Assembly: GCA_946541845.1 (NCBI GenBank)
Contig: CAMNJW010000010.1
Span: forward strand, 1 to 33,794
Direction of reading: 5' to 3'
From: an uncultured Methanobrevibacter sp.
Lineage (GTDB): Archaea; Methanobacteriota; Methanobacteria; Methanobacteriales; Methanobacteriaceae
Length of the DNA: 33,794 nt
The position numbers were made by a program, and so were the translations under genes. Under the pieces are notes generated by a model. The model was given only the letters and a program-made list of their open reading frames with translations. It was not told the origin of the DNA and did no database searches. Of this stretch, positions 2,644-15,237 are shown piece after piece. The number at the start of each line of letters is the position of its first letter. Position 1 is the stretch's first letter.

Positions 2644-3912
2644 GTGATTAAGATTAAGTATTTACATATTGGGATAGACGATACGGATTCTCCGGATGGA
2701 ATGTGCACAACATATCTTGCAAGTCAGATTATTAATGAATTTAAAGATAATGGAATTGAATTGGTTGAGTATCCTAGACTGATAAGATTGAATCCATTTG
2801 CCCGTTTTAAAACTCGTGGAAATGGTGGGGTCAGTTTAAAGATTTTAAATGATGACAAAGCAGAGTTGGCCAAAGAGATTGTTTTGTGCAAAGTTAAGAA
2901 GCTATCCATGTTTGACTGTGACAATACAAATCCCGGCGTAATCTTTTATGATGGTGAAATTACAAAGGAAATGGTGGATTATGCGTTCAGGGCTATTTAT
3001 GAGTTCATCACAATTGAAGAGGCCGAAGAATTTGGAAAGTCTGTAGGATGTGAAATCCATAAGTTCAAAAAGGGAAGGGGAATCATAGGCTCAATCGCAG
3101 CTATTAGCCTGCCTTTAAAGGATTATACTTATGAACTTCTTGCATATAGATCTAGTGAAAACTACGGAACCAAAAGGTGCATCGATTATGAATCAGTATA
3201 TCAGATGGATAAGGAAACTTTTCCTGACACTTTTGAAAACATAGATTATTCTGAAGACTATATTGCAATTGAACCGAAAACACCTTGTCCTGTTTTATAT
3301 GGAATCCGATCAAACACTGTTGATGCGTTGAAGGAGGCAAAAAACATTGTTGAGGTTTCAGAGCCGATTGTTGACTGGTGTATTTTTAAGACAAATCAGC
3401 ATACTGATATGCATATACAAAAGGCGTCAGATATTTCTTCCATGAAGCAGTTTGGATGCTATGAGGTCGTTGGGGAAGTTAAAAACAAGCCTACAATCAT
3501 TGATGGTGGACACATGTTCTTTTATATCTTCGATGAGTCAGGAGAGATTGAATGCGGCGCATATGAGCCAACAAAAAATTTCAGAAAGGTCGTTTCCAAA
3601 TTATTGCCTGGAGATATCATTAAAGTCTATGGGGGAATTGGAGAACAAAACACTTTCAATATTGAGAAGTTTCAAGTTATAAAACTGAATGATGTAGAAT
3701 ATAAAAATCCAATCTGTCAATGTGGTAAAAGAATGACTTCTGCAGGTAAAAATAAGGGTTTCAAATGTAAAAAATGTGGAAATAGGGTTGAATCTAATGA
3801 AAAAGTTCCTATTAAAATCAAGCGTTTTTTAAAAAATTCTCAATTTTACGAAACACCAGTTTCTGCAAGGCGTCATCTATCAAAACCACTTTGTAGAATG
3901 AATCTAAATTAA
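2644..3912 (+). CDS. tiaS: tRNA(Ile2) 2-agmatinylcytidine synthetase TiaS
   Basis: TiaS uses ATP and agmatine to convert C34 of tRNA-Ile(CAU) to agmatidine, so that the tRNA reads AUA codons. It is a near-universal archaeal decoding enzyme. Evidence: the N-terminal HIGIDDTDSPDGMCTTYLA signature, FARFKTRGNGGVSL, the middle GRGIIGSIAAI segment, an OB-fold-like stretch (FGCYEVVGEVKNKPTIIDGGH) and a C-terminal zinc ribbon, C-x-C-GKRMTSAGKNKGFKC-x2-C. Length (about 420 aa) is normal. Start: the only canonical option is GTG 2644, but it lies inside AAGGTGAT (2641-2648), which looks like the ribosome binding site. Four bases further on is ATT 2653, which would give the short N-terminus usual for the family. 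I report GTG 2644 but consider ATT 2653 at least as likely. Confidence 0.92.
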   Translation: MIKIKYLHIGIDDTDSPDGMCTTYLASQIINEFKDNGIELVEYPRLIRLNPFARFKTRGNGGVSLKILNDDKAELAKEIVLCKVKKLSMFDCDNTNPGVIFYDGEITKEMVDYAFRAIYEFITIEEAEEFGKSVGCEIHKFKKGRGIIGSIAAISLPLKDYTYELLAYRSSENYGTKRCIDYESVYQMDKETFPDTFENIDYSEDYIAIEPKTPCPVLYGIRSNTVDALKEAKNIVEVSEPIVDWCIFKTNQHTDMHIQKASDISSMKQFGCYEVVGEVKNKPTIIDGGHMFFYIFDESGEIECGAYEPTKNFRKVVSKLLPGDIIKVYGGIGEQNTFNIEKFQVIKLNDVEYKNPICQCGKRMTSAGKNKGFKCKKCGNRVESNEKVPIKIKRFLKNSQFYETPVSARRHLSKPLCRMNLN

Positions 3913-4060: not shown

Positions 4061-4109
4061 AGTTTTAAAAGACTAGTTTTATCTATTCTTACTCAATAGA
4101 GGTGATATT

Positions 4110-5003
4110 ATTTTCAATAAGGATGGGCAAAATAGTGAAGTTGAACATATTTATCGTGATAAAACTGATAAGCGTATTCTAAAGAAAAATCCTTGGAAGG
4201 ATTATGGATTGCATCTATCCGTACTTCTTTTGGTGATTATTGCTGAATTAATTGGGCCAATAGAAATACAACTTACAAAGGGAGTTACTGTTTCAATCAT
4301 GCCCTTACTTTATACAATGGTTTTGGGATTAATTTTTTACCTTGCAAAACCCATTAAATGGATTCAGCGAAAACAAGCTCGTATTGCTGAAGGGGCTATG
4401 ATGCTTTTCATTGGTGTTCTGATTGCAAAACTGGCGGTTTCCAGCGGTCAGTCAATTCATTTAATTTTTGAAATGGGTCCGGCATTGTTATTGCAGGAAT
4501 TGGGGCATTTGGCAACAATATTCATTGCACTTCCTGTTGCTTTGTTGTTAGGTTTTAAACGAGAGACTATAGGTATGACAAATTCTATCGGCCGTGAACC
4601 TGAAGTTGCAGTTGTTGTTGACAAATATGGATTTAATTCACCTGAATCCAGAGGAATTTTTGCGCTGTTTATTGTCGGAACAATAATCGGAACTGTATTT
4701 ATCAGCTTTTTGACAAGTATTTCTGTTTCAGTTCTTCCTCTTCATCCGTTTGCGTTTGCAATGGCAAGTGGTGTGGGAAGTGCAAGTATGAATGCTGCTT
4801 CATTGGGACCTACATTAGCTGCATTTCCATCGTTAGAGACTCAAATTGAAGCATTCGCAGGATTCAGTAATTTGCTATCATTCTCTATTGGGATTTATAT
4901 TGTGATATTTGTTGCATTGCCTTTAACTGAAAAATTATATGCCTTTTTTGAACCAAAAATTGGAAGAGATTATGTAAAAAAGGGAGATGATGAAAATGCC
5001 TGA
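4110..5003 (+). CDS. DUF3100-type membrane protein, copy 1 (apparent ATT start)
   Basis: A polytopic membrane protein of about 297 aa resembling the DUF3100 family, function unestablished; I infer a transporter component. The N-terminus is cytosolic-looking and basic (HIYRDKTDKRILKKNPWKD), followed by roughly seven to eight hydrophobic spans. Conserved-looking loops are KPIKWIQRKQARIAEGAMM, GMTNSIGREPEVAVVVDKYGFNSPESRG and AMASGVGSASMNAASLGPTLAAFP. It is a close paralogue of the gene at 5630-6529. No ATG, GTG or TTG precedes TTG 4209, which would remove the conserved N-terminus and cut into the first span. GAGGTGAT (4099-4106) is instead followed three bases later by ATT 4110, which aligns with the paralogue's start region. 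Either ATT is used, or an ATG has been lost. Its stop overlaps the partner gene's start by 8 bases. Confidence 0.72.
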   Translation: MFNKDGQNSEVEHIYRDKTDKRILKKNPWKDYGLHLSVLLLVIIAELIGPIEIQLTKGVTVSIMPLLYTMVLGLIFYLAKPIKWIQRKQARIAEGAMMLFIGVLIAKLAVSSGQSIHLIFEMGPALLLQELGHLATIFIALPVALLLGFKRETIGMTNSIGREPEVAVVVDKYGFNSPESRGIFALFIVGTIIGTVFISFLTSISVSVLPLHPFAFAMASGVGSASMNAASLGPTLAAFPSLETQIEAFAGFSNLLSFSIGIYIVIFVALPLTEKLYAFFEPKIGRDYVKKGDDENA

Positions 5004-5484
5004 TTTCATTGATGGATCCGAAAATGTTTCTGTTCATGGAATATTTAATTGGATATTGCTTTTAGCAATATTTTCTGTAATTGTAGTTATTGGAAATTTT
5101 ATCGGGTATCAGCATCCTATTTCTGATTCATTGGTTGGTATGGCCATATTGTCTTTAATTACTCTTGCTGGCGTTTGGATGGAGAGATATTTGCCGTTCA
5201 ATATTTCATCCATTATTTACATAAGTGTAATGGGGATTGTTTTGGCATTTCCTGGAATGCCTACTTCTGAAATTTTGCTTTATTATGTCTCTAAAGTGGA
5301 ACTTTTATCTATCGTTACAGTATTTTTGGCTTATGTAGGTATTGGTATGGGTAAAAGCTGGGATGAGTTCAAGGCTCTTGGTTGGAGGGCAATAATTATC
5401 ACAATTTTGGTTATTGCGTCAACGTATCTTGGTTCTGCCTTTGTTGCCCACGTTATCTTGGTTATGACTGGTGTTCCAGCATAA
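4996..5484 (+). CDS. Membrane protein partner of the DUF3100-type protein, copy 1
   Basis: A 162-aa integral membrane protein with about four to five hydrophobic spans and an amphipathic N-terminus MPDFIDGSENVSVHGIFNW. Notable conserved parts are LVGMAILSLITLAGVW, MERYLPFN, FPGMPTSE and GKSWDEFKALGWRA. I do not recognise a named family. The fixed pairing with the DUF3100-type gene in both tandem copies and the 8-base overlap suggest that the two proteins form one complex, perhaps a two-subunit permease. I chose ATG 4996 over ATG 4987 and 4990 because the paralogue starts at the matching MPD. Substrate unknown. Confidence 0.75.
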   Translation: MPDFIDGSENVSVHGIFNWILLLAIFSVIVVIGNFIGYQHPISDSLVGMAILSLITLAGVWMERYLPFNISSIIYISVMGIVLAFPGMPTSEILLYYVSKVELLSIVTVFLAYVGIGMGKSWDEFKALGWRAIIITILVIASTYLGSAFVAHVILVMTGVPA

Positions 5485-5490
5485 CTTTTT

Positions 5491-5507
5491 ATTCATCTTT
5501 TGTGAAA
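5491..5507. promoter_or_regulatory. Inverted-repeat element upstream of cassette copy 2
   Basis: ATTCATCTTTTGTGAAA differs from the element at 3969-3985 in two positions. It starts 139 bases before the ATG at 5630; the first copy starts 141 bases before ATT 4110. The arms TTCA/TGAA are retained. Confidence 0.4.
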
Positions 5508-5560
5508 ATTATTACTATTTTTCATTCCTATTATGTGAATTTTTTAAATTGAATGTGATT

Positions 5561-5573
5561 AATTTATATATTA
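5561..5573 (+). promoter_or_regulatory. TATA box candidate for cassette copy 2
   Basis: AATTTATATATTA sits about 63 bases before the ATG at 5630 in a 145-base gap. The second cassette therefore probably has its own promoter. Confidence 0.45.
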
Positions 5574-5629
5574 TGTTTTGAGAAAATATTAAATGTACAA
5601 TGTATTTTTAACATATTATTTAAAACTTC

Positions 5630-6529
5630 ATGGGGTTTGTTACTATTCCAAATAAGGATGATGATGGGCATATAGAGCATATTTATAGAGAAAAAACGGA
5701 CAAGCGTATTTTAAAGAAAAATCCCTGGAGGGATTATAGATTACACGTTACTGTGTTTGTTTTGGTAATCATTGCTGAGTTAATCGGTACTATAGAAATA
5801 CCACTATCTAAAGATATTTCAATCACAATTATGCCTTTGATTTATACCATTATCTTAGGTTTGGCATTTTATCTGGCAAAACCTATTAAATGGATTCAGC
5901 GAAAACAGGCTCGTATTGCTGAAGGGGCAATGATGCTTTTCATCGGAGTTTTAATTGCAAAATTAGCTGTTTCTAGTGGACAATCAATCAGTTTAATATT
6001 TGATATGGGTCCTGCATTGATTTTACAGGAATTAGGGCACTTGGCAACAATTCTTGTTCTTCCGATTGCTTTGCTTTTAGGATTTAAGAAAGAGGCTATC
6101 GGTATGACAAATTCAATAGGTAGGGAACCGAATGTTGCGGTTGTTGTTGATAAGTTCGGATTCGACTCCCCTGAATCAAGAGGGGTCTTTGCAATATTTA
6201 TCATCGGTACTGTGATTGGTACAATATTTATCAGTTTCCTTGTAACATTCTCATTGTCATTCCTGCCATTGCATCCGTATGCATTTGCTATGGCTAGTGG
6301 TGTGGGAAGTGCAAGTATGAATGCAGCTGCAATCGGACCGACCCTTGCGGCTTTCCCTGGTATGGAAACTCAAATTGAAGCGTTTGCGGGTTTCAGTAAT
6401 TTGCTCTCATTCTGTGTAGGAATATATATTGTGATATTTGTTGCTCTTCCTTTAACTGAAAAGATGTATAATTGGTTGGAGCCAAAAATTGGAAGAGATT
6501 CAATAATGCCTAAAAAGGAGGATGAATAG
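5630..6529 (+). CDS. DUF3100-type membrane protein, copy 2
   Basis: A 299-aa polytopic membrane protein, paralogue of the gene at 4110-5003 and resembling DUF3100. It has the same basic N-terminal stretch (HIYREKTDKRILKKNPWRD) followed by about eight hydrophobic spans. The loops GMTNSIGREPNVAVVVDKFG and AMASGVGSASMNAAAIGPT are nearly unchanged between copies, whereas the periplasm-like segment after the first span (IEIPLSKDISITI) has diverged. The ATG at 5630 has no obvious Shine-Dalgarno sequence. The partner gene begins directly after the stop, with GGAGG inside the 3' end of this gene as its ribosome binding site. Function is inferred as transport, from topology and its place before a carboxylate-enzyme gene set. 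Confidence 0.82.
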   Translation: MGFVTIPNKDDDGHIEHIYREKTDKRILKKNPWRDYRLHVTVFVLVIIAELIGTIEIPLSKDISITIMPLIYTIILGLAFYLAKPIKWIQRKQARIAEGAMMLFIGVLIAKLAVSSGQSISLIFDMGPALILQELGHLATILVLPIALLLGFKKEAIGMTNSIGREPNVAVVVDKFGFDSPESRGVFAIFIIGTVIGTIFISFLVTFSLSFLPLHPYAFAMASGVGSASMNAAAIGPTLAAFPGMETQIEAFAGFSNLLSFCVGIYIVIFVALPLTEKMYNWLEPKIGRDSIMPKKEDE

Positions 6530-7021
6530 ATGCCTGATTTGATTGATGGATCTGAAAATGTCACAGTCCATGGTATTTTTAATTGGATTTTATTGTTGGC
6601 TATATTTTCAATTATCACTGCCATCGGTAATTATTTAGGTTACAAACATCCGATGACCGATTCATTGGTTGGTATGGGTATTTTATCTCTTATTACTCTT
6701 GTAGGTGTATGGTTGGAAAGGTACTTGCCGTTTAATGTATCTTCAATTCTTTATATCAGTATAATGGGTATCATTTTGGCTTTCCCGGGAATGCCAACAT
6801 CTGAATTTGTCCTATATTATGTTTCTAAAGTTGAACTGTTGGCTATTGTGACCGTATTTTTAGCATATGTTGGTATAGGAATGGGTAAAAGTTGGGATGA
6901 ATTCAAGGCTTTAGGTTGGAGAGCTATTGTTATAACAATCCTGGTTATTGCAGCGACTTATTATGGTGCAGCTATTGTGGCACACATTGTTCTTGTATTA
7001 ACTGGTGTTCCTGCAGTTTAA
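6530..7021 (+). CDS. Membrane protein partner of the DUF3100-type protein, copy 2
   Basis: A 163-aa membrane protein, paralogue of 4996-5484, with the same MPDLIDGSENVTVHG start, the ERYLPFN turn, FPGMPTSE and GKSWDEFKALGWRA. It begins the base after the upstream stop, behind GGAGG at 6518-6522. The 87-base gap to the MmgE/PrpD gene has no strong terminator, so read-through into the enzyme genes is possible. No recognised domain; a permease subunit is my inference. Confidence 0.77.
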   Translation: MPDLIDGSENVTVHGIFNWILLLAIFSIITAIGNYLGYKHPMTDSLVGMGILSLITLVGVWLERYLPFNVSSILYISIMGIILAFPGMPTSEFVLYYVSKVELLAIVTVFLAYVGIGMGKSWDEFKALGWRAIVITILVIAATYYGAAIVAHIVLVLTGVPAV

Positions 7022-7108
7022 ATTAATTTTTAAACTTTAAACTTTCTTTTTTAATAAAAACTTACTATTTTTAATACTACCTTTTACATATATTATTGTA
7101 GGTGTTTT

Positions 7109-8515
7109 ATGTTTTTACAAAATATTTCTAAATTTATTTCAAACTATCGCTATGAACAAGCAACTGTAGAATCACTCACCACGGTCAAGGCTGCTTTTTT
7201 AGACTTTTTTGGAGTAACTTATCGTGGAATGGGTGAGGAAGCTTCAAAAATTGCTCTAAATACTGTTGAAGAAATATTTTCAAATAAATTCAATTCAAAT
7301 TTGAGCGCATCAGTCATCGCAACAGACTTGAAAACAGATATATTAAGCGCTGCTTTTGTAAACAGTGTTGCAGCCCATGTTCTGGAATTGGATGATGGCC
7401 ATAGGGGAGCTCAAATACATTTGGGGTCAATCATATTTCCTACAGCATTGGCAATATCCGAAGCATATGACTTGACTGGTAAGGAGTTTCTAGAAGGAGT
7501 CATAGTGGGATATGAAGTCGGCATATTGCTTGGCCAAATTGTAAATCCTGACCATAGAAACAGAGGGTTTCATACGACTGGAACTATTGGAACTTTTATC
7601 GCAGGGACTGTTGCATCAAAGCTGTTAAAACTGGATGAGGAACAAACCTTAAATGCGTTAGGCCTATGCGGAACTCAAGCCGCCGGTCTTTTGGAATCTG
7701 ACCATGGCGGATCAATGGGCAAGGTTTTGCATGCTGGAAAGGCATCTTACAATGGGATTTTGTCAGCATTCCTTGCAAGAAACGGTTTTACAGGCAGTGG
7801 AACTATCTTTGAAGGGGATGAAGGATTTTTAAATGCAATGGTGTTTGATTCAGATAAGAATATGGATGATTTTTCATTGGAAAACGTACTGAAAGACATA
7901 GGAAAGGTCAGAGTAAGAGATATTTACTTTAAAAAATATCCTTTTTGTAGGCATTTGCATTCTTCAATTGACACTGCTTTAAAGCTTAAGGCAAGCATTG
8001 GAGATGAATATGATCATATTAAAAATATCGCAGTTAAAACATATTCTGTTGCGGCGGAACATAACAACTATCGTCCTAAAAACTTGGAAGAACTAAAGCA
8101 AAGCCTGCCTTATGCAGTGGCTATTGCATTGGTGGTTGGTGAAGTAACAGTTGATGATATTAATCAATTAATTGAATATGGTCTTTTAGATAATTATTCT
8201 ACTGTGGATAAGGTAAACAGCATTAAAAACCTGGTCAATGGAATGATTCTTATTTCAGATGATAAATTAAATGAATTATATCCATCAAAAAGGCCTTCTA
8301 ACGTCATTATTAAGTTGGATGAAACTTTCAGAAGCGGTATTTTTCAAAACATCACATTGCTTCCGAAGGGTGATTTTGAAAATCCGTTGCAATTGAGAGA
8401 GTTGATTGATAAATTCAAAGGACTTAATCATGATTATGATATTAAGAATTTGACAGTCATTGATTCTCTTGAAGATTATACAATGAAGTATGTTGTTCGT
8501 AAATTAAATGAGTAG
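7109..8515 (+). CDS. MmgE/PrpD family protein
   Basis: A soluble 468-aa enzyme of the MmgE/PrpD family, which includes 2-methylcitrate dehydratase, cis-aconitate decarboxylase and iminodisuccinate epimerase. Family blocks are present in order: NSVAAHVLELDDGHRG (85-100) with IHLGSIIFPTALA following, GYEVG (134-138), GFHTTGTIGTFIAG (153-166), GKVLHAGKASYNG (204-216) and KKYPFCRHLHSSIDTA (275-290). His104, His155, Lys211 and a His in the last block fall where the active-site His/Lys residues of this family are expected. Length is normal for the family. TAGGTG precedes the ATG. It heads the five-gene set through 11668, with only 5 bases to the next gene. The exact reaction cannot be read from sequence; neighbours suggest a di- or tricarboxylate substrate. 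Confidence 0.88.
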   Translation: MFLQNISKFISNYRYEQATVESLTTVKAAFLDFFGVTYRGMGEEASKIALNTVEEIFSNKFNSNLSASVIATDLKTDILSAAFVNSVAAHVLELDDGHRGAQIHLGSIIFPTALAISEAYDLTGKEFLEGVIVGYEVGILLGQIVNPDHRNRGFHTTGTIGTFIAGTVASKLLKLDEEQTLNALGLCGTQAAGLLESDHGGSMGKVLHAGKASYNGILSAFLARNGFTGSGTIFEGDEGFLNAMVFDSDKNMDDFSLENVLKDIGKVRVRDIYFKKYPFCRHLHSSIDTALKLKASIGDEYDHIKNIAVKTYSVAAEHNNYRPKNLEELKQSLPYAVAIALVVGEVTVDDINQLIEYGLLDNYSTVDKVNSIKNLVNGMILISDDKLNELYPSKRPSNVIIKLDETFRSGIFQNITLLPKGDFENPLQLRELIDKFKGLNHDYDIKNLTVIDSLEDYTMKYVVRKLNE

Positions 8516-8520
8516 ATACT

Positions 8521-9423
8521 ATGAATGATACAAAGGAATTCCTTAAGAAAATTGGCATAAATGAAGTTTTCAAAGATTATGAATCTTCCAAGAGATTTGG
8601 CGATGGTGGTCAGTACCGTTTTGAAGTGCCGGGCATCCAATCTCCAAAAACAATGAATGCGCTTTTGAAAGAATCTATCAAACAGGATGTTTTCATTCAC
8701 AGGGTTACTCAGACCAAAGGCATCATGATGTTGACTGATGATGAAATCAGTGAAATGGTTGATTTGGCCATTGACTATGGATGCGAGTTATTTTTATCAG
8801 TGGGTCCAAGAGCAACTTACGACACTTCTGCAACAGTTCATACAAAAGAGGGCAGCAGAATAGGATATCGTTTACGAGGATATGATAATTTAGTTTATGC
8901 AATCGAAGATGTTAAAAGGGCATGCAGGTTAGGTGTAAGGGGGATCTTGCTTTATGATGAGGGATTACTTTTTGTTTTAAATAAGATGAGGCAAGACGGT
9001 GAGATTCCAGAAAATGTTCACTTCAAGTTGTCAGCTCATGCTGGGCACTCCAATCCAGCTTCTGCTAAACTTTTACAGGAACAAGGTTTAAATTCTCTAA
9101 ATCCGGTTAGAGACTTGCAAATCCCAATGATTGCAGCCATTAGGGATGCCTGTGATATGGCAATAGATTTGCACACTGAAAATCCGAAATCAACCGGAGG
9201 TTTCATTAGGCATTATGAGGTTCCTGAATTCATTAAGGTTGCAGCGCCTGTTTATCTAAAAACCGGAGGTTCCGTTGCGGCAAATCACAATTGGGATACA
9301 ACTGAAAAAGAGGCGATAGCCCGTATAAAACAGGTATTGCTAGTCAAAAGAATGATTAATACCTACTGTCCTGATGCTGTAGTTTCTCCAAAGCAATCTG
9401 ATGATTTATCTGTTCCAGAGTGA
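8521..9423 (+). CDS. U32-peptidase-like TIM-barrel protein of the carboxylate gene set
   Basis: A soluble 300-aa protein with alternating strand and helix segments typical of a TIM barrel. Recognisable parts are TKGIMMLTDDEISEMVDLAIDYG, a glycine-rich RIGYRLRGYDN turn, RLGVRGILLYDEG, then HFKLSAHAGHSNPASAKLLQ and GLNSLNPVRDLQIPMIAAI. The last two resemble the barrel end of the U32 peptidase group, where such proteins are usually placed by automated annotation. I see nothing that proves peptidase activity, and its place between carboxylate enzymes argues for a lyase or isomerase instead. It is 5 bases from the preceding gene and 4 from the next, with no promoter between. The gene is real; its function is unknown. 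Confidence 0.7.
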   Translation: MNDTKEFLKKIGINEVFKDYESSKRFGDGGQYRFEVPGIQSPKTMNALLKESIKQDVFIHRVTQTKGIMMLTDDEISEMVDLAIDYGCELFLSVGPRATYDTSATVHTKEGSRIGYRLRGYDNLVYAIEDVKRACRLGVRGILLYDEGLLFVLNKMRQDGEIPENVHFKLSAHAGHSNPASAKLLQEQGLNSLNPVRDLQIPMIAAIRDACDMAIDLHTENPKSTGGFIRHYEVPEFIKVAAPVYLKTGGSVAANHNWDTTEKEAIARIKQVLLVKRMINTYCPDAVVSPKQSDDLSVPE

Positions 9424-9427
9424 TTAT

Positions 9428-10300
9428 ATGGATATTCTAGAGGATATTTCTAAAACGATAATAGATGCATCCACTTCTCTTTCTGATGATAAGCTCAATG
9501 CATTAAAAAAGGCCATTTCCATTGAAGAAAATGAAAATTCAAGATGGGCATTGGAGCAGATTCTGGAAAATTATCTAGTGGCTCAAAAGACCAGTTTTCC
9601 CTTATGTGATGATACAGGAATTCCTCATGTAATTATTGAGATGGGCGAAAAAAGAGAAATTTCAGGTGAACTTTTAAACCAGATTCATGAAGGAATCAGA
9701 TTAGGTTTAAACAATCTTCCAGCAAGGCCCATGGCTGTTAGAGGAAATGAATTTGAGCGAATTGAACAGAGTCAGGGACTATTTGAAGAGCCTGGAATGC
9801 TTCGCCCAGCTTCTATATTGATTGACAGTGCTAATGATGAATCAACCTACAAGAGGGACATCGCACCGGACACATTAAACATTCATTTTTTACTTGAAGG
9901 AGGAGGCCCTGAAATTAGGGCAAAGACATATAGGGTTTATCATAAGAGGTCTTTTGAAAATGTGATAAATACTGCATGCGAATGGCTTGAAGATTCACTG
10001 AAAATGTTGGGATGCACTCCTTCGATTCCGGCCATAGGCATTGGAAGGACACACTATGAAGCGACATCACTTCTTTTAAAATCAATCGCTTATGGAAATT
10101 TGGACAGTCAAAACAGCTATGAGAAGCAAATTACAGATAAATTGAATGAAACTGGAATCGGACCGTTAGGATTAGGTGGTAAAACTACTGTTTTGGGAAC
10201 TTATCTTAATATCGGAAATCAAAGGGCAAGCGGTGTTAGAATAGTTTCCGTAAGACCGTCCTGTTTTGTTGAGCCGAGAGTTGCAACATTGAAATTATAA
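9428..10300 (+). CDS. Class I fumarase / tartrate dehydratase alpha-type Fe-S hydro-lyase
   Basis: A 290-aa protein matching the alpha (N-terminal) part of class I fumarases and L(+)-tartrate dehydratases, oxygen-sensitive 4Fe-4S enzymes that add or remove water from dicarboxylates. Three cysteines sit where the cluster ligands are expected: Cys60 in SFPLCDDTGIP, Cys196 in MLGCTPSIPAIGIG and Cys279 in RPSCFVEPR. GPLGLGGKTTVLG (245-257) and LEGGGPEIRA (156-165) are family blocks, the latter differing from the more usual GGGGSEN. The partner beta domain is absent from the window, so it must be encoded elsewhere or be unnecessary. I chose ATG 9428, preceded by AGTGAT; an in-frame ATT-ATG option upstream overlaps the previous gene. 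This gene may be a paralogue of the housekeeping fumarase. Confidence 0.85.
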   Translation: MDILEDISKTIIDASTSLSDDKLNALKKAISIEENENSRWALEQILENYLVAQKTSFPLCDDTGIPHVIIEMGEKREISGELLNQIHEGIRLGLNNLPARPMAVRGNEFERIEQSQGLFEEPGMLRPASILIDSANDESTYKRDIAPDTLNIHFLLEGGGPEIRAKTYRVYHKRSFENVINTACEWLEDSLKMLGCTPSIPAIGIGRTHYEATSLLLKSIAYGNLDSQNSYEKQITDKLNETGIGPLGLGGKTTVLGTYLNIGNQRASGVRIVSVRPSCFVEPRVATLKL

Positions 10301-10356
10301 ATCTTTATATATTATTTTATATTATTTTTAATTAACAAAGCAAAAGGTATTTGAAA

Positions 10357-11157
10357 ATGCAAGAAAATAATTTTAGAGTCAATCCACATTCACTAAAAAC
10401 AGCCATATCCAGAGTTGAAACAGATAAAATCGTCACTCGAGGATACAATCAAAGAGATTTGATTGAGAAAATCCGTTATAGCGATATGGTTTTTTTACTT
10501 TTGAAAGGCAGATTACCCTCTATTGAAGAGGGAAGAATATTCAATCATGTTCTTGTTTCATTTTGTGATCATGGTGTCACACCGCCAAGTACTCAAACTG
10601 CACGTTTAGTTGCATCATCAGGTTCACCGATGAATTCTGCAGTTGCAGGAGCATTACTATCCTTTGGACATAAGCATGCGGGAGCCATTGAAAAGACAAT
10701 GGAATTATATCAATCCAAGGTCAATTCATTATATCTTACTGAAGATTCAGACATTGACAATAAGCAAATTGCTCGTTTGGCTATTGAAATATACAATGAA
10801 TATGTATTAGGCAATAAAAAAGTACCTGGATTCGGACATAGATATCATAATGTTGACCCCAGGGCCGATAAACTGATGGAACTTGTCATCAAACAGGGTT
10901 TCATTGGGCCTCATATAAAATTGGCATTGGCAGTTGAAGACTTGATTTATCAAAAAAAAGGAATCAAACTTAATGTAGATGGTGCAAATGCAGCTATATT
11001 ATCTGATTTGGGGTTCACTCCTGATTTGGGTCTTGGTGTTTTCATTATAGGTAGAATTCCCGGCATAATTGCACACATCCATGAAGAGAATATGGAAGAA
11101 GAAGAATTTAGAAAATTTTGCGATTTAGATGATATAATATATAAAACAGGAAGATAA
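10357..11157 (+). CDS. Citrate synthase superfamily protein, short citryl-CoA lyase type
   Basis: A 266-aa protein of the citrate synthase fold, much shorter than true citrate synthase (about 370-430 aa) and close in size to citryl-CoA lyase-type proteins. The three catalytic positions of the superfamily look intact: His107 in FGHKHAGA, His161 in GFGHRYHNVDPRAD and Asp208 in LNVDGANAAI. GLGVFIIGRIPGIIAHIHEE closes the fold. It probably forms or cleaves the bond between an acyl-CoA and a 2-oxo acid, for example citryl-CoA to acetyl-CoA and oxaloacetate. I start it at ATG 10357 behind AAGGTAT, not TTG 10351. The 56-base gap before it is A/T-rich and could hold an internal promoter. The stop is one base from the nitroreductase start. 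Confidence 0.85.
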   Translation: MQENNFRVNPHSLKTAISRVETDKIVTRGYNQRDLIEKIRYSDMVFLLLKGRLPSIEEGRIFNHVLVSFCDHGVTPPSTQTARLVASSGSPMNSAVAGALLSFGHKHAGAIEKTMELYQSKVNSLYLTEDSDIDNKQIARLAIEIYNEYVLGNKKVPGFGHRYHNVDPRADKLMELVIKQGFIGPHIKLALAVEDLIYQKKGIKLNVDGANAAILSDLGFTPDLGLGVFIIGRIPGIIAHIHEENMEEEEFRKFCDLDDIIYKTGR

Positions 11158-11158
11158 T

Positions 11159-11668
11159 ATGGAATTTATTGATGTAATTACTGAAAGATACAGTGTTAGA
11201 GGATACTTGGATAAGGAAGTTGAAAAGGAAAAGCTCGATTATGTCCTTAAGGCTGCAACAATAGCTCCGACTGGTGTCAATGCTCAGCCTTTTAAGGTTT
11301 ATGTGATTGATACAAAAAAGTACAAGGATGAATTATCAGAAATCTATGCTGCTAAATGGTTTGTTGAAGCTCCATATGTGTTATGTGTTGTTGCTGTTAA
11401 AAATGAGGCCTGGACAAGGCCATGGGACATGAAAAACATTGCAGACATTGATGCAACAATCGTAATGGATCATATCATTCTTGCAGCGACTGATGTGGGT
11501 CTTGGAACTTGTTACATTGGAGCATTCAAGAAAAACAAGGCACATCAATTTTTAAACCTGGATGAAAACGAAGAAGCAGTTTTATTTACTCCATTAGGAT
11601 ATGGTAATGCTGAACCTAGGGAAACTCCAAGAAAAGAATTGGATGAATTTGTAGTTTATATGGATTAA
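11159..11668 (+). CDS. Nitroreductase family flavoprotein
   Basis: A 169-aa FMN-dependent oxidoreductase of the nitroreductase family. It begins with VITERYSVRGYLDKEV, the usual phosphate-binding Arg segment, followed by AATIAPTGVNAQPFKVYVID, a helix with DATIVMDHIILAATDVGLGTCYIGAF and the C-terminal LGYGNAEPRETPRKELDEFV. Length fits the compact form of the family. It starts one base after the citryl-CoA lyase-type gene and is therefore probably in the same transcript, but the family is too broad to say whether it takes part in the same pathway. Substrate unknown. Confidence 0.88.
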   Translation: MEFIDVITERYSVRGYLDKEVEKEKLDYVLKAATIAPTGVNAQPFKVYVIDTKKYKDELSEIYAAKWFVEAPYVLCVVAVKNEAWTRPWDMKNIADIDATIVMDHIILAATDVGLGTCYIGAFKKNKAHQFLNLDENEEAVLFTPLGYGNAEPRETPRKELDEFVVYMD

Positions 11669-11669
11669 A

Positions 11670-12008
11670 ATGAAACTCTATATTTTGTCTGCAGAGAATT
11701 CCAAGGAGATGGACAGGCTGTCTGAGGAATTGTCTGACAAGAAATTCAAGCTTGTAGAACAGGATGATACCTTTAGATTAATGCGAAGAAGAAGATATGG
11801 TAATGTTTTAATTCATGTGGTTTGTTTAATTATTGCATTAACCTACTTCAGCCCCTTAATCTTTGTAAATGTGATTTACTTTATGTATTCATATCTATGG
11901 GCTTCCCCACATGCATTGATTACAACTGAAAAAGTTGATGATGAGGGCAATCCATTGGAATTTAGTGACATGGATGAATTGCTGGACAAGGCCACAGCTA
12001 TTCTATAA
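11670..12008 (+). CDS. Small two-span membrane protein, unknown
   Basis: A 112-aa protein that I do not recognise. The first 45 residues are charged and cytosolic-looking, ending in a basic patch (RLMRRRRYG). Two hydrophobic segments follow (about 46-62 and 65-82), then an acidic tail (EKVDDEGNPLEFSDMDELLDKA). The basic patch suggests that both ends are cytosolic. It starts directly after the nitroreductase stop, so it probably shares its transcript, and its stop overlaps that of the convergent gene by 11 bases. It may be restricted to Methanobacteriales. Confidence 0.6.
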   Translation: MKLYILSAENSKEMDRLSEELSDKKFKLVEQDDTFRLMRRRRYGNVLIHVVCLIIALTYFSPLIFVNVIYFMYSYLWASPHALITTEKVDDEGNPLEFSDMDELLDKATAIL

Positions 12009-12907: not shown

Positions 12908-13222
12908 ATGGCAGAGATATCAGACGCAATCGCAATGATAAAAAAAGCTGAATCTGATGCTGAACAACTTATCGTTGATTCAAATTCACAATCAAAAGAT
13001 TTGATTGCAGAATCAAAGTTAAAAGCTGAAGAAGCTGTTTCAGAAGTTGTAATAGCTGCAGAAGAAGAAGCTAAAAATACTGTTTTTGATGCAGAAGATA
13101 AAGCTAAAAAAGAAGCGCAAACAATTGCTGAGCAATCTAAAGGCGATGTAAAAGCCTTAAAAGATAAAGCTATGGCAAATGTTGACGAAGCTGCTTCTAT
13201 TATTGTCAAAAATATTTTGTAG
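12908..13222 (+). CDS. atpH: A-type ATP synthase subunit H
   Basis: First gene of the A1Ao ATP synthase operon (also called ahaH). The 104-aa product is nearly all alpha-helix with a heptad-like pattern rich in Ala, Glu and Lys (AEEEAKNTVFDAEDKAKKEAQTIAE), as expected for the small coiled-coil stalk subunit. It pairs with subunit E to form the peripheral stalks that hold the A1 head against the membrane subunit I. Length is typical. ATG 12908 follows GGTGAT; 11 bases separate it from atpI. Low-complexity helices make the sequence call weak alone, but operon position makes it secure. Confidence 0.9.
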   Translation: MAEISDAIAMIKKAESDAEQLIVDSNSQSKDLIAESKLKAEEAVSEVVIAAEEEAKNTVFDAEDKAKKEAQTIAEQSKGDVKALKDKAMANVDEAASIIVKNIL

Positions 13223-13233
13223 TGTGAGTTTAT

Positions 13234-15237
13234 ATGTTCAAGACAGCTAGAATGCGAAAAATTAGAATTGTTACACTGGAAAAGTATGTAGCACCTACAG
13301 TGGACGCTCTCCACGAATCAGGGCTCATACAAGTCAGTGATATTTCTGAAAGCATTCAGCAAGATCCTGAATTAGCGGAATTAGTGACTCCTTCAAAAGC
13401 CACTCCTTACACTGGTAAATTATCTTCACTTCTTATGAAAACAAACGGTATATCTGAACTATTAGGAAATTCTTTATCAGAAGGCCATGGGTTAAAAGAC
13501 ACTTTAATGTCTTTTATTAGTCCAGATTTGCCTGTTCAAAAAGAAATTGAGAAGTTGGATACTCCAGCTTTTATTGAAAAAGCTGAAGATACTTTAGCAC
13601 AAGTAGAGAGTAAAACAAGTGTTATTGAAGGTAAATTAGCCGCACTCGACGCTGAAACAAGTGAACTAAAGTCTAATAAAAGTTTGGCTAAACGCTTATC
13701 TAATTTTGACATGGATTTAGCTCTTTTAAAAGATTCAAAGTACACTTCTACTACTGTTGGTAGGATTAATGCTGAATCTTCTTCAGAAATCAAAAAAGAA
13801 TTAAGTAACTTGACTGATGAATTAGAAGTATTTACTGTTCCTATGGATGATGATGACGGTGAAATCATTACTGTAGTGACATTAAAAGAATTTAGTGATG
13901 ATGTTTATTCAACACTTCGTAAATTCGACTTTGAGAAAATTGAAGTAGGAGATGTTGAAGGTACTCCTCAACACGTTATTTCAAATGCTGATTCCAGATT
14001 ACTTACCATTGAATCAGAACGTGCTTCAGTTAAATCTGAATTAAGAGCAGTCGCTGAACAATGGGACGATGAGATATTAGCTCTCAAAGAACAATTAGAA
14101 AATGAAAAAGAAAAGAACGAAATCCTTTCATCATTTGTTCAAACTAAAGATGCTTATGTCCTTGAAGCATGGGTACCTGTAAAAGATACCGAGAAAGTTG
14201 AACAATTAGTTGAAAAAAGTTCTGATGGACATTGTGCCTTTGAAACAATAGAGGTTGAAGGTACTGATGATGAAAATGTTCCTGTTTTACAACAAAATGG
14301 ATGGTATGCAAAACCTTTCGAATACCTCGTGGATATGTACTCTCCAGTACGTTACAACGCTTTAGATCCAACAATATTTGTTGCAATCACATTCCCATTC
14401 TTCTTCGGTTTCTGTTTAACCGATGCAGTTTATGGTTTAGTTGTAGCCGCAATTGGTGTTGTATTATTGAAAGGTCTTGGAAAAGTTAAAGAATCCATGC
14501 ATTCATTTGGTTGGATTTTAATCTGGTCTGGTCTGTGGGCCGTTGTACTGGGTTTAATAACCAATGGTTTTATTGGGGACTTCCCAGAAAGGATTGCTGG
14601 TTTCCGTTTACCAACTGTAATTCCTGCAGTTGAATCATTTGTACACCCTGATACTATTTTGATTATAGCTATCATCGTTGGTCTTATTTACACCAACATA
14701 GGATTCATATTAGGTGCTATTAACAACTTGAGATACGGAAATGTTAAAGATGCAATCGGTTCTCAAATTTGTTGGTTTGTTTTCGAAGCTGGTATTATCT
14801 TACTCGCTTTAGGATTTATGATGCCTGCAATCGGTATGATAGGCATGATCTTAGGTGGAATATTAATAGTTGCTACCATTGGAATGTTAGTATGGGCTAA
14901 CGGTGCATACGGTGTAATGGATATTTTCGGTTACATGGGTGACGTCTTATCCTACGCTCGTCTTTTAGCATTATGTTTAGCTACCGGTGGTATTGCTATG
15001 ACCGTTAACATTTTAGCTGAAATGTTAAACAACATGATTCCTTTCGCTGGAATTGTAATTGCAATTATTGTATTCATATTTGGTCATATTGCAAACTTCG
15101 CTTTCCAAGTATTAGGTGCATTTATTAACGCTTTACGTCTTAACTATGTAGAGTTCTTCTCACAATTCTTCATGGAAGGTAAAGGTAAATTCGAAGCTTT
15201 CAAAGCAAAAAGAACATTTACAAAAATTAAAAATTAA
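13234..15237 (+). CDS. atpI: A-type ATP synthase subunit I (a-type membrane subunit)
   Basis: The large 667-aa stator subunit. Residues 1 to about 345 are cytosolic, with long coiled coils (ESKTSVIEGKLAALDAE, LKEQLENEKEKNE) that bind the peripheral stalks. The rest has about seven to eight membrane spans forming the ion half-channels next to the K ring. DVLSYARLLALCLATGG contains the conserved Arg expected to face the ring carboxylates, and NALRLNYVEFFSQFF is the family's closing signature. ATG 13234 follows GTGAG. Length is normal. The following 65 bases before atpK are the longest gap inside the operon. Confidence 0.95.
   Translation: MFKTARMRKIRIVTLEKYVAPTVDALHESGLIQVSDISESIQQDPELAELVTPSKATPYTGKLSSLLMKTNGISELLGNSLSEGHGLKDTLMSFISPDLPVQKEIEKLDTPAFIEKAEDTLAQVESKTSVIEGKLAALDAETSELKSNKSLAKRLSNFDMDLALLKDSKYTSTTVGRINAESSSEIKKELSNLTDELEVFTVPMDDDDGEIITVVTLKEFSDDVYSTLRKFDFEKIEVGDVEGTPQHVISNADSRLLTIESERASVKSELRAVAEQWDDEILALKEQLENEKEKNEILSSFVQTKDAYVLEAWVPVKDTEKVEQLVEKSSDGHCAFETIEVEGTDDENVPVLQQNGWYAKPFEYLVDMYSPVRYNALDPTIFVAITFPFFFGFCLTDAVYGLVVAAIGVVLLKGLGKVKESMHSFGWILIWSGLWAVVLGLITNGFIGDFPERIAGFRLPTVIPAVESFVHPDTILIIAIIVGLIYTNIGFILGAINNLRYGNVKDAIGSQICWFVFEAGIILLALGFMMPAIGMIGMILGGILIVATIGMLVWANGAYGVMDIFGYMGDVLSYARLLALCLATGGIAMTVNILAEMLNNMIPFAGIVIAIIVFIFGHIANFAFQVLGAFINALRLNYVEFFSQFFMEGKGKFEAFKAKRTFTKIKN

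Follow-up and report, generated by a model that had tools for sequence, protein, structure and literature searches.

A conserved enzyme operon of Methanobacteriales that may make the tetracarboxylic tail of methanofuran

What use does a methanogen have for a row of enzymes that resemble those of citrate chemistry? The question is raised by a 33,794-nucleotide stretch of DNA from an uncultured Methanobrevibacter sp. (assembly GCA_946541845.1, contig CAMNJW010000010.1, positions 1 to 33,794 of the forward strand; hereafter the window), in which eight open reading frames (ORFs) follow one another on the + strand from 4110 to 11157. An initial annotation read them as a block for the uptake and conversion of an external tricarboxylate. 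The last four encode an MmgE/PrpD-superfamily enzyme, a U32-like barrel protein, the alpha subunit of an iron-sulfur (Fe-S) hydro-lyase and an enzyme of the citryl-coenzyme A (citryl-CoA) lyase type. These four genes form a core operon that is conserved in nearly all Methanobacteriales. We propose that, together with an unlinked gene for a second hydro-lyase beta subunit, they make 1,3,4,6-hexanetetracarboxylic acid (HTCA, also named 1,3,4,6-tetracarboxyhexane), the terminal group of Methanobacteriales methanofuran. On the genomic evidence, we hold the chances for and against this proposal to be about equal.

Methanofuran is the first carbon carrier in CO2-reducing methanogenesis; its core is built by MfnA to MfnF, which leaves the tetracarboxylic tail to be accounted for. 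The methanofuran of M. smithii reportedly carries a hydroxylated HTCA (White 1988), a modification that a hydro-lyase could help to account for. The HTCA structure itself amounts to two glutarate units joined at C2. The compound is a component of Methanothermobacter methanofuran and is reported to be a major free solute in M. thermautotrophicus Marburg (PMC1224877). As of 2011, MfnA was the only methanofuran enzyme assigned in Methanothermobacter, with about seven proteins unknown (PMC3087415), and the enzymes found since then concern the core (general knowledge; PMC11365854).

The MmgE, U32-like, hydro-lyase alpha and lyase genes follow one another in this same order, far beyond what chance would produce, at every locus examined in four lineages: Methanobrevibacter, the Methanothermobacter group, a third family and genome G049, probably of the Methanothermus fervidus type. 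The operon is retained even in the 1.24-Mb genome of the latter (1,243,342 bp). A search of 152 Methanobacteriota genomes found the U32-like gene in 129; outside this group, one of about 245 archaea gave a match, with a much lower score. Among the 23 genomes without it, three come from other genera and have a completeness of 67-72%, and the remaining 20 belong to a single genus (g26). We identify the latter as Methanosphaera, every sampled member of which misses the gene. Archaeal MoaA fell under its cut-off in 11 of 11 g26 genomes tested and exceeded it in 10 of 10 others. Missing molybdopterin synthesis, and hence the lack of a functional formylmethanofuran dehydrogenase, has been reported for Methanosphaera (PMC6120340). 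Absence of the operon from this genus rests on the U32-like, second alpha and second beta genes, the MmgE and lyase genes not having been searched for directly. Literature searches on the DUF3100 family (see below), HTCA and MTH962-965 returned no account of the gene block; as far as they show, it is undescribed, as the initial annotation had supposed. The enzyme genes of the window are as follows.

7109..8515, + strand: MmgE/PrpD-superfamily enzyme, probable dehydratase (PF03972, 228 bits; PF19305, 89.6 bits)
8521..9423, + strand: U32-like TIM-barrel protein (PF01136, 21.5 bits, under the cut-off of 22.4)
9428..10300 (ORF open from 9401), + strand: Fe-S hydro-lyase alpha, second paralogue of fumarase alpha (PF05681, 178.7 bits)
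10357..11157, + strand: citryl-CoA-lyase-type enzyme, citrate synthase superfamily, short form (NF004866, 418.5 bits against a cut-off of 245)

Pfam and NCBIfam profiles agree with the families first assigned to these genes, and the idea of a citrate-like chemistry was right. Among solved structures, the MmgE protein comes closest to IDS epimerase and to IRG1/cis-aconitate decarboxylase, its match to PrpD being weaker; at 32.7-40.5 bits against prpD equivalog cut-offs of 458-950, it is not recognized as a PrpD-type 2-methylcitrate dehydratase. Of the proteins encoded in the operon, the U32-like one is the best conserved, with about 65% identity throughout the order. It does not qualify as a U32 peptidase: its score lies under the family cut-off, the bacterial homologue has no match and there is no conserved cysteine. 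AlphaFold2 predicts a barrel (predicted local distance difference test, pLDDT, 80); no function could be assigned from structure, the fold matches being those of a generic barrel only, including in comparison with PrpB. The lyase-type enzyme has its nearest solved relative in the citryl-CoA lyase 6hxp (261 bits). Residues H107, H161, D208 and R233 are invariant, and the profile score together with the catalytic His/His/Asp set (the first three of these) places it in the citryl-CoA lyase subfamily. It shares with the 6hxp family the short form, the subfamily and the catalytic residues, but sits in a core biosynthetic setting and has no citryl-CoA synthetase gene beside it in the operon; none was found among the neighbouring ORFs of the window or its relatives, the rest of the genome not having been searched.

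The hydro-lyase alpha is not the genome's fumarase. Operon-bearing genomes encode two PF05681 alphas, the one in the operon and a canonical fumarase alpha (313-362 bits) located elsewhere, as is the canonical beta; g26 has the canonical alpha only. The PF05683 betas follow the same pattern: genomes with the operon have a canonical copy and a divergent one, g26 a single copy. The operon alpha scores 120.8 bits against the fumarase equivalog cut-off of 276, and 58 against the 365 of tartrate dehydratase. Its cysteines C69, C205 and C288, the expected Fe-S ligands, are invariant in 14 sequences. Given the canonical copy, a role as the fumarase of the tricarboxylic acid cycle was rejected; so was an alpha acting without a beta, once the unlinked second beta had been found. 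This second beta shares 44-49% identity with the one that Clostridia encode next to alpha, so we take the archaeal alpha and beta to form one enzyme, a two-subunit hydro-lyase distinct from fumarase. Like class I two-subunit fumarases and L-tartrate dehydratase (TtdAB), this enzyme pairs an alpha that has three cluster cysteines with a separate FumA-C/TtdB-type beta; unlike them, it scores far under the equivalog cut-offs, coexists with a canonical fumarase and is encoded in archaea by unlinked genes. In a Methanothermobacter thermautotrophicus DeltaH-type genome (L162 9095-9499) the second beta ORF is short, 134 amino acids compared with about 165, possibly through a frameshift or a sequencing error.

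It is the location of the second beta gene that leads to methanofuran. In a survey of 19 operon-bearing genera, one of which was untestable since its contig ends, the gene lies directly beside mfnA in 13 of 18 (convergently in one of the 13), with a 4-bp overlap at loci L163 and L164. The neighbour is MfnA by its equivalog profile (TIGR03812, 537-572 bits against 299.4). This adjacency, the one point of contact with the MfnA-MfnF pathway, spans the M. fervidus-type genome, the third family, Methanothermobacter and most Methanobacteriaceae genera; the four-gene operon itself has no linkage to mfn genes. Proximity of the second beta to mfnA and the core distribution of the operon together argue for biosynthesis, and not for uptake and splitting of an external tricarboxylate.

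One could envision that the operon supplies a different metabolite, such as the hydroxyglutarate of methanopterin or another coenzyme precursor, or that HTCA is made mainly as a solute. The core distribution would suit any of these, HTCA is a reported major solute (PMC1224877), and in the window's genus the second beta adjoins genes for a ferredoxin, a 2-oxoacid:ferredoxin oxidoreductase (kor) and succinyl-CoA synthetase beta (sucC). Nonetheless, methanopterin occurs in methanogens at large (general knowledge) while the operon is confined to Methanobacteria, and the linkage of the second beta to mfnA also speaks against such alternatives, which we regard as quite improbable.

In the HTCA route that we propose, the citryl-CoA-lyase-type enzyme would condense a C5 acyl-CoA (glutaryl-CoA or a similar compound) with 2-oxoglutarate, so that two glutarate halves become linked C2-C2', in a reaction homologous to the formation of 2-methylcitrate. 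Dehydration by the MmgE/PrpD enzyme would then leave an alkene resembling 2-methylaconitate, which the alpha/beta Fe-S hydro-lyase and the U32-like barrel might process unless they make a precursor; a reductase would saturate the alkene. As a matter of chemistry, condensation, PrpD-type dehydration and reduction would give exactly the HTCA skeleton. We infer the substrates, the product, the order of steps and every reaction of this route. A close parallel is the 2-methylcitrate cycle, where an enzyme of the citrate synthase superfamily (PrpC) acting on a carbon-carbon bond is likewise followed by an MmgE/PrpD dehydratase (PrpD). Here, however, the short lyase-type enzyme replaces a full synthase (92.9 bits against 421.3 for the full-length profile, cit_synth_II), the MmgE protein is nearer to IDS epimerase and IRG1 than to PrpD, and the operon contains neither the 2-methylisocitrate lyase PrpB nor AcnD, adding instead the two-subunit Fe-S hydro-lyase and the U32-like barrel.

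A number of observations weigh against the assignment to HTCA. The second beta is not beside mfnA in genera g1, g17, g20, g24 and g27, which include the genus of the window; in the window's own genome it lies on contig C34 (L167). Another conserved neighbour of mfnA is ppsA, so that the linkage could be inherited synteny; two g26 genomes have ppsA-mfnA without the beta. Methanosphaera retains mfnA, mfnB and fwdB; the core coenzyme genes were not lost along with the operon, and co-loss of the whole methanofuran system was accordingly rejected. No reductase, ligase or source of C5-CoA was identified, in an analysis that included no genome-wide phyletic-pattern search. The main counter-evidence comes from a few gut Clostridia, organisms that make no methanofuran: within polysaccharide clusters they carry a U32-like homologue 64-66% identical to the archaeal protein, accompanied by MmgE and the two hydro-lyase subunits. 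The archaeal phyletic pattern does fit HTCA-type methanofuran, with the reservations that tails are known for few species and that Clostridia have these related genes.

The initial annotation had suggested looking for the gene order in gut bacteria, and the U32-like, MmgE and hydro-lyase (FumB and FumA) genes are indeed found together in these Clostridia; the citryl-CoA-lyase-type gene is missing, its place being taken by a carbon-carbon lyase of family PF15617. The clusters further comprise an ATP-grasp protein, an aldo-keto reductase and a phosphonopyruvate-decarboxylase-type enzyme, and are surrounded by genes for sugar transferases, flippases and nucleotide-sugar metabolism. They share with the archaeal operon the U32-like, alpha, beta and MmgE proteins and differ from it in their lyase, in the extra decarboxylase, reductase and ATP-grasp genes and in their polysaccharide setting. 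Between the two groups, identity is 44-47% for alpha, 44-49% for beta and 26-30% for MmgE. Distribution is sporadic: only 2 of 344 genomes of the order of Sporofaciens have the U32-like homologue. Because the Clostridial U32-like sequences form a group (support 99/100) close to the archaeal ones and far from other bacteria, transfer of this gene between archaea and Clostridia, in either direction, seems likely from the tree. Phosphonate synthesis by the clusters was considered and not supported: phosphoenolpyruvate (PEP) mutase exceeded its cut-off in one of five cluster-bearing genomes. As the Sporofaciens genome has no PEP-mutase match, the substrate of the decarboxylase-type enzyme in these sporadic clusters (L146-L150) is probably not phosphonopyruvate. 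A distant U32-like homologue was also noticed on an Enterobacter plasmid (L152 7914-16771), in an apparent small-molecule biosynthesis cluster.

Archaea and Clostridia may use the shared genes to reach a common intermediate and then turn it into different products; alternatively, the archaeal product may itself be a surface acid. In the latter case, the operon would provide a carboxylic acid for the decoration of pseudomurein or a polysaccharide at the cell surface, identical to the one that gut Clostridia attach to exopolysaccharide, and the mfnA linkage would be inherited synteny. The bacterial genes closest to the U32-like gene do lie amid sugar transferase, flippase and nucleotide-sugar genes, in clusters that also hold MmgE, an ATP-grasp ligase, an aldo-keto reductase, the decarboxylase-type enzyme and a carbon-carbon bond lyase. 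However, that lyase is a different one, no surface-polymer gene adjoins the Methanobacteriales operon, whose neighbours are tRNA-modification-type and ATP synthase genes, and the operon is present in all sampled lineages but Methanosphaera, whatever the habitat. We therefore consider a surface acid unlikely. Returning to HTCA, we put forward the full scenario tentatively, at a little under even chances: the operon and the mfnA-linked second beta would be the missing tail pathway, a citrate-like route of condensation and dehydration that builds on 2-oxoglutarate, and its U32-like/MmgE/hydro-lyase part would have passed between these archaea and gut Clostridia, in which it would serve surface polysaccharide.

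The other four ORFs of the block, which the initial annotation described as two tandem membrane-protein pairs, lie upstream of the enzyme genes. The tandem copies are real, but each pair is one DUF3100 transporter split in two, as relatives have the fused form (421-468 amino acids). These ORFs, the interval that follows them and the downstream end of the operon are given below.

4110..5003, + strand: DUF3100 transporter, N-terminal part, copy 1 (PF11299, 288 bits; fused to the next ORF in relatives)
4987..5484, + strand: DUF3100 transporter, C-terminal part, copy 1 (homologous to fused DUF3100 proteins over their C-terminal part)
5630..6529, + strand: DUF3100 transporter, N-terminal part, copy 2 (PF11299, 285 bits)
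6530..7021, + strand: DUF3100 transporter, C-terminal part, copy 2 (homologous to fused DUF3100 proteins over their C-terminal part)
7060..7089, + strand: putative AT-rich promoter-like block, conserved, preceding the enzyme operon (12 Methanobrevibacter loci aligned)
11159..11668, + strand: nitroreductase-family protein, genus-specific operon extension (PF00881, 95 bits)
11670..12008, + strand: small membrane protein, genus-specific operon extension (1-nucleotide gap; position kept within the genus)

Import of an external hydroxy-tricarboxylate through the DUF3100 cassettes, with the enzymes then splitting it into an acyl-CoA plus an oxo acid, would explain why cassettes and enzymes are adjacent on the same strand in the window's genus and some sister genera, and the lyase-type enzyme does keep its catalytic residues. 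Conserved linkage, however, holds for the enzymes, whose order is kept in every relative, and not for the cassettes. DUF3100 occurs in five Methanobacteria genera, one of them Methanosphaera, which lacks the enzymes; conversely, at least 14 genera that have the enzymes are without DUF3100. The enzymes, for their part, are near-universal in the order, autotrophs included, a separate conserved promoter-like block appears to precede them, and the second beta is found by mfnA. The uptake model is thus not supported, and we think it very improbable. The cassettes are not a required part of the pathway and are best taken as neighbours of the operon. In bacteria, DUF3100 is a widespread family with varied neighbours, often amidohydrolases or M20 peptidases; on plasmids these include M20 peptidase, amidohydrolases, aspartoacylase and threonine dehydratase. 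A sequence search of the PDB with DUF3100 gave no match. The model of the fused protein (pLDDT 77) finds NapA and CitS as its best Foldseek matches at E values of 0.007-0.02, which are not significant, and no function was assigned from structure. In Methanosphaera, DUF3100 adjoins thiM-like and thiE-like genes (L219 9776-18166, L220 6067-10942, L221 8089-12964); on account of these neighbours and of the reported thiamine requirement of M. stadtmanae, the Methanosphaera protein is a candidate transporter of a thiamine precursor.

All eight ORFs were confirmed with the coordinates first given. The first DUF3100 gene has an ATT at 4110 behind the Shine-Dalgarno motif AGGTGAT (4100-4106); this ATT is its probable start codon, since no ATG, GTG or TTG occurs before 4209 and the N-terminus matches that of the paralogue at 5630. 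The cassettes are separated from the enzyme genes by 87 nucleotides, which contain the promoter-like block; a generic promoter/terminator scan gave a signal near chance level. Gaps of 4-5 bases had been reported for most of the enzyme genes, and this is true of MmgE/U32-like (5 nucleotides) and U32-like/alpha (about 4, taking the in-frame ATG 9428 as the start). Between alpha and the lyase gene (ATG 10357), however, the gap is about 56 nucleotides. At three loci of other genomes (L046 5539-6763, L048 2962-4329 and L068 11831-13087), unrelated genes are inserted between these two: a broken ATPase-type gene, a cation-efflux-like gene and a TnpB-like transposase gene. In the window the row runs on past the lyase gene, with 1-nucleotide gaps, into the nitroreductase and small membrane protein genes. 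The former, which might be a flavin reductase of the pathway, follows the lyase gene within the genus and not in other genera. Flanking the operon are a tRNA-modification-type (TiaS-like) gene at 2644-3912, kept upstream in most families, and A-type ATP synthase genes at 12908-15237.

The Methanobacteriales are the dominant methanogens of gut and rumen, and no assigned genes were found for HTCA. If the proposal is true, the four well-conserved operon genes and the unlinked gene of the second beta would gain a function, and a long-open question about a known structure could be addressed through single knock-outs. The labels "fumarate hydratase", "citryl-CoA lyase" and "U32 peptidase" would need correction for these genes, and a pathway specific to the methanogens of livestock and the human gut would be exposed.

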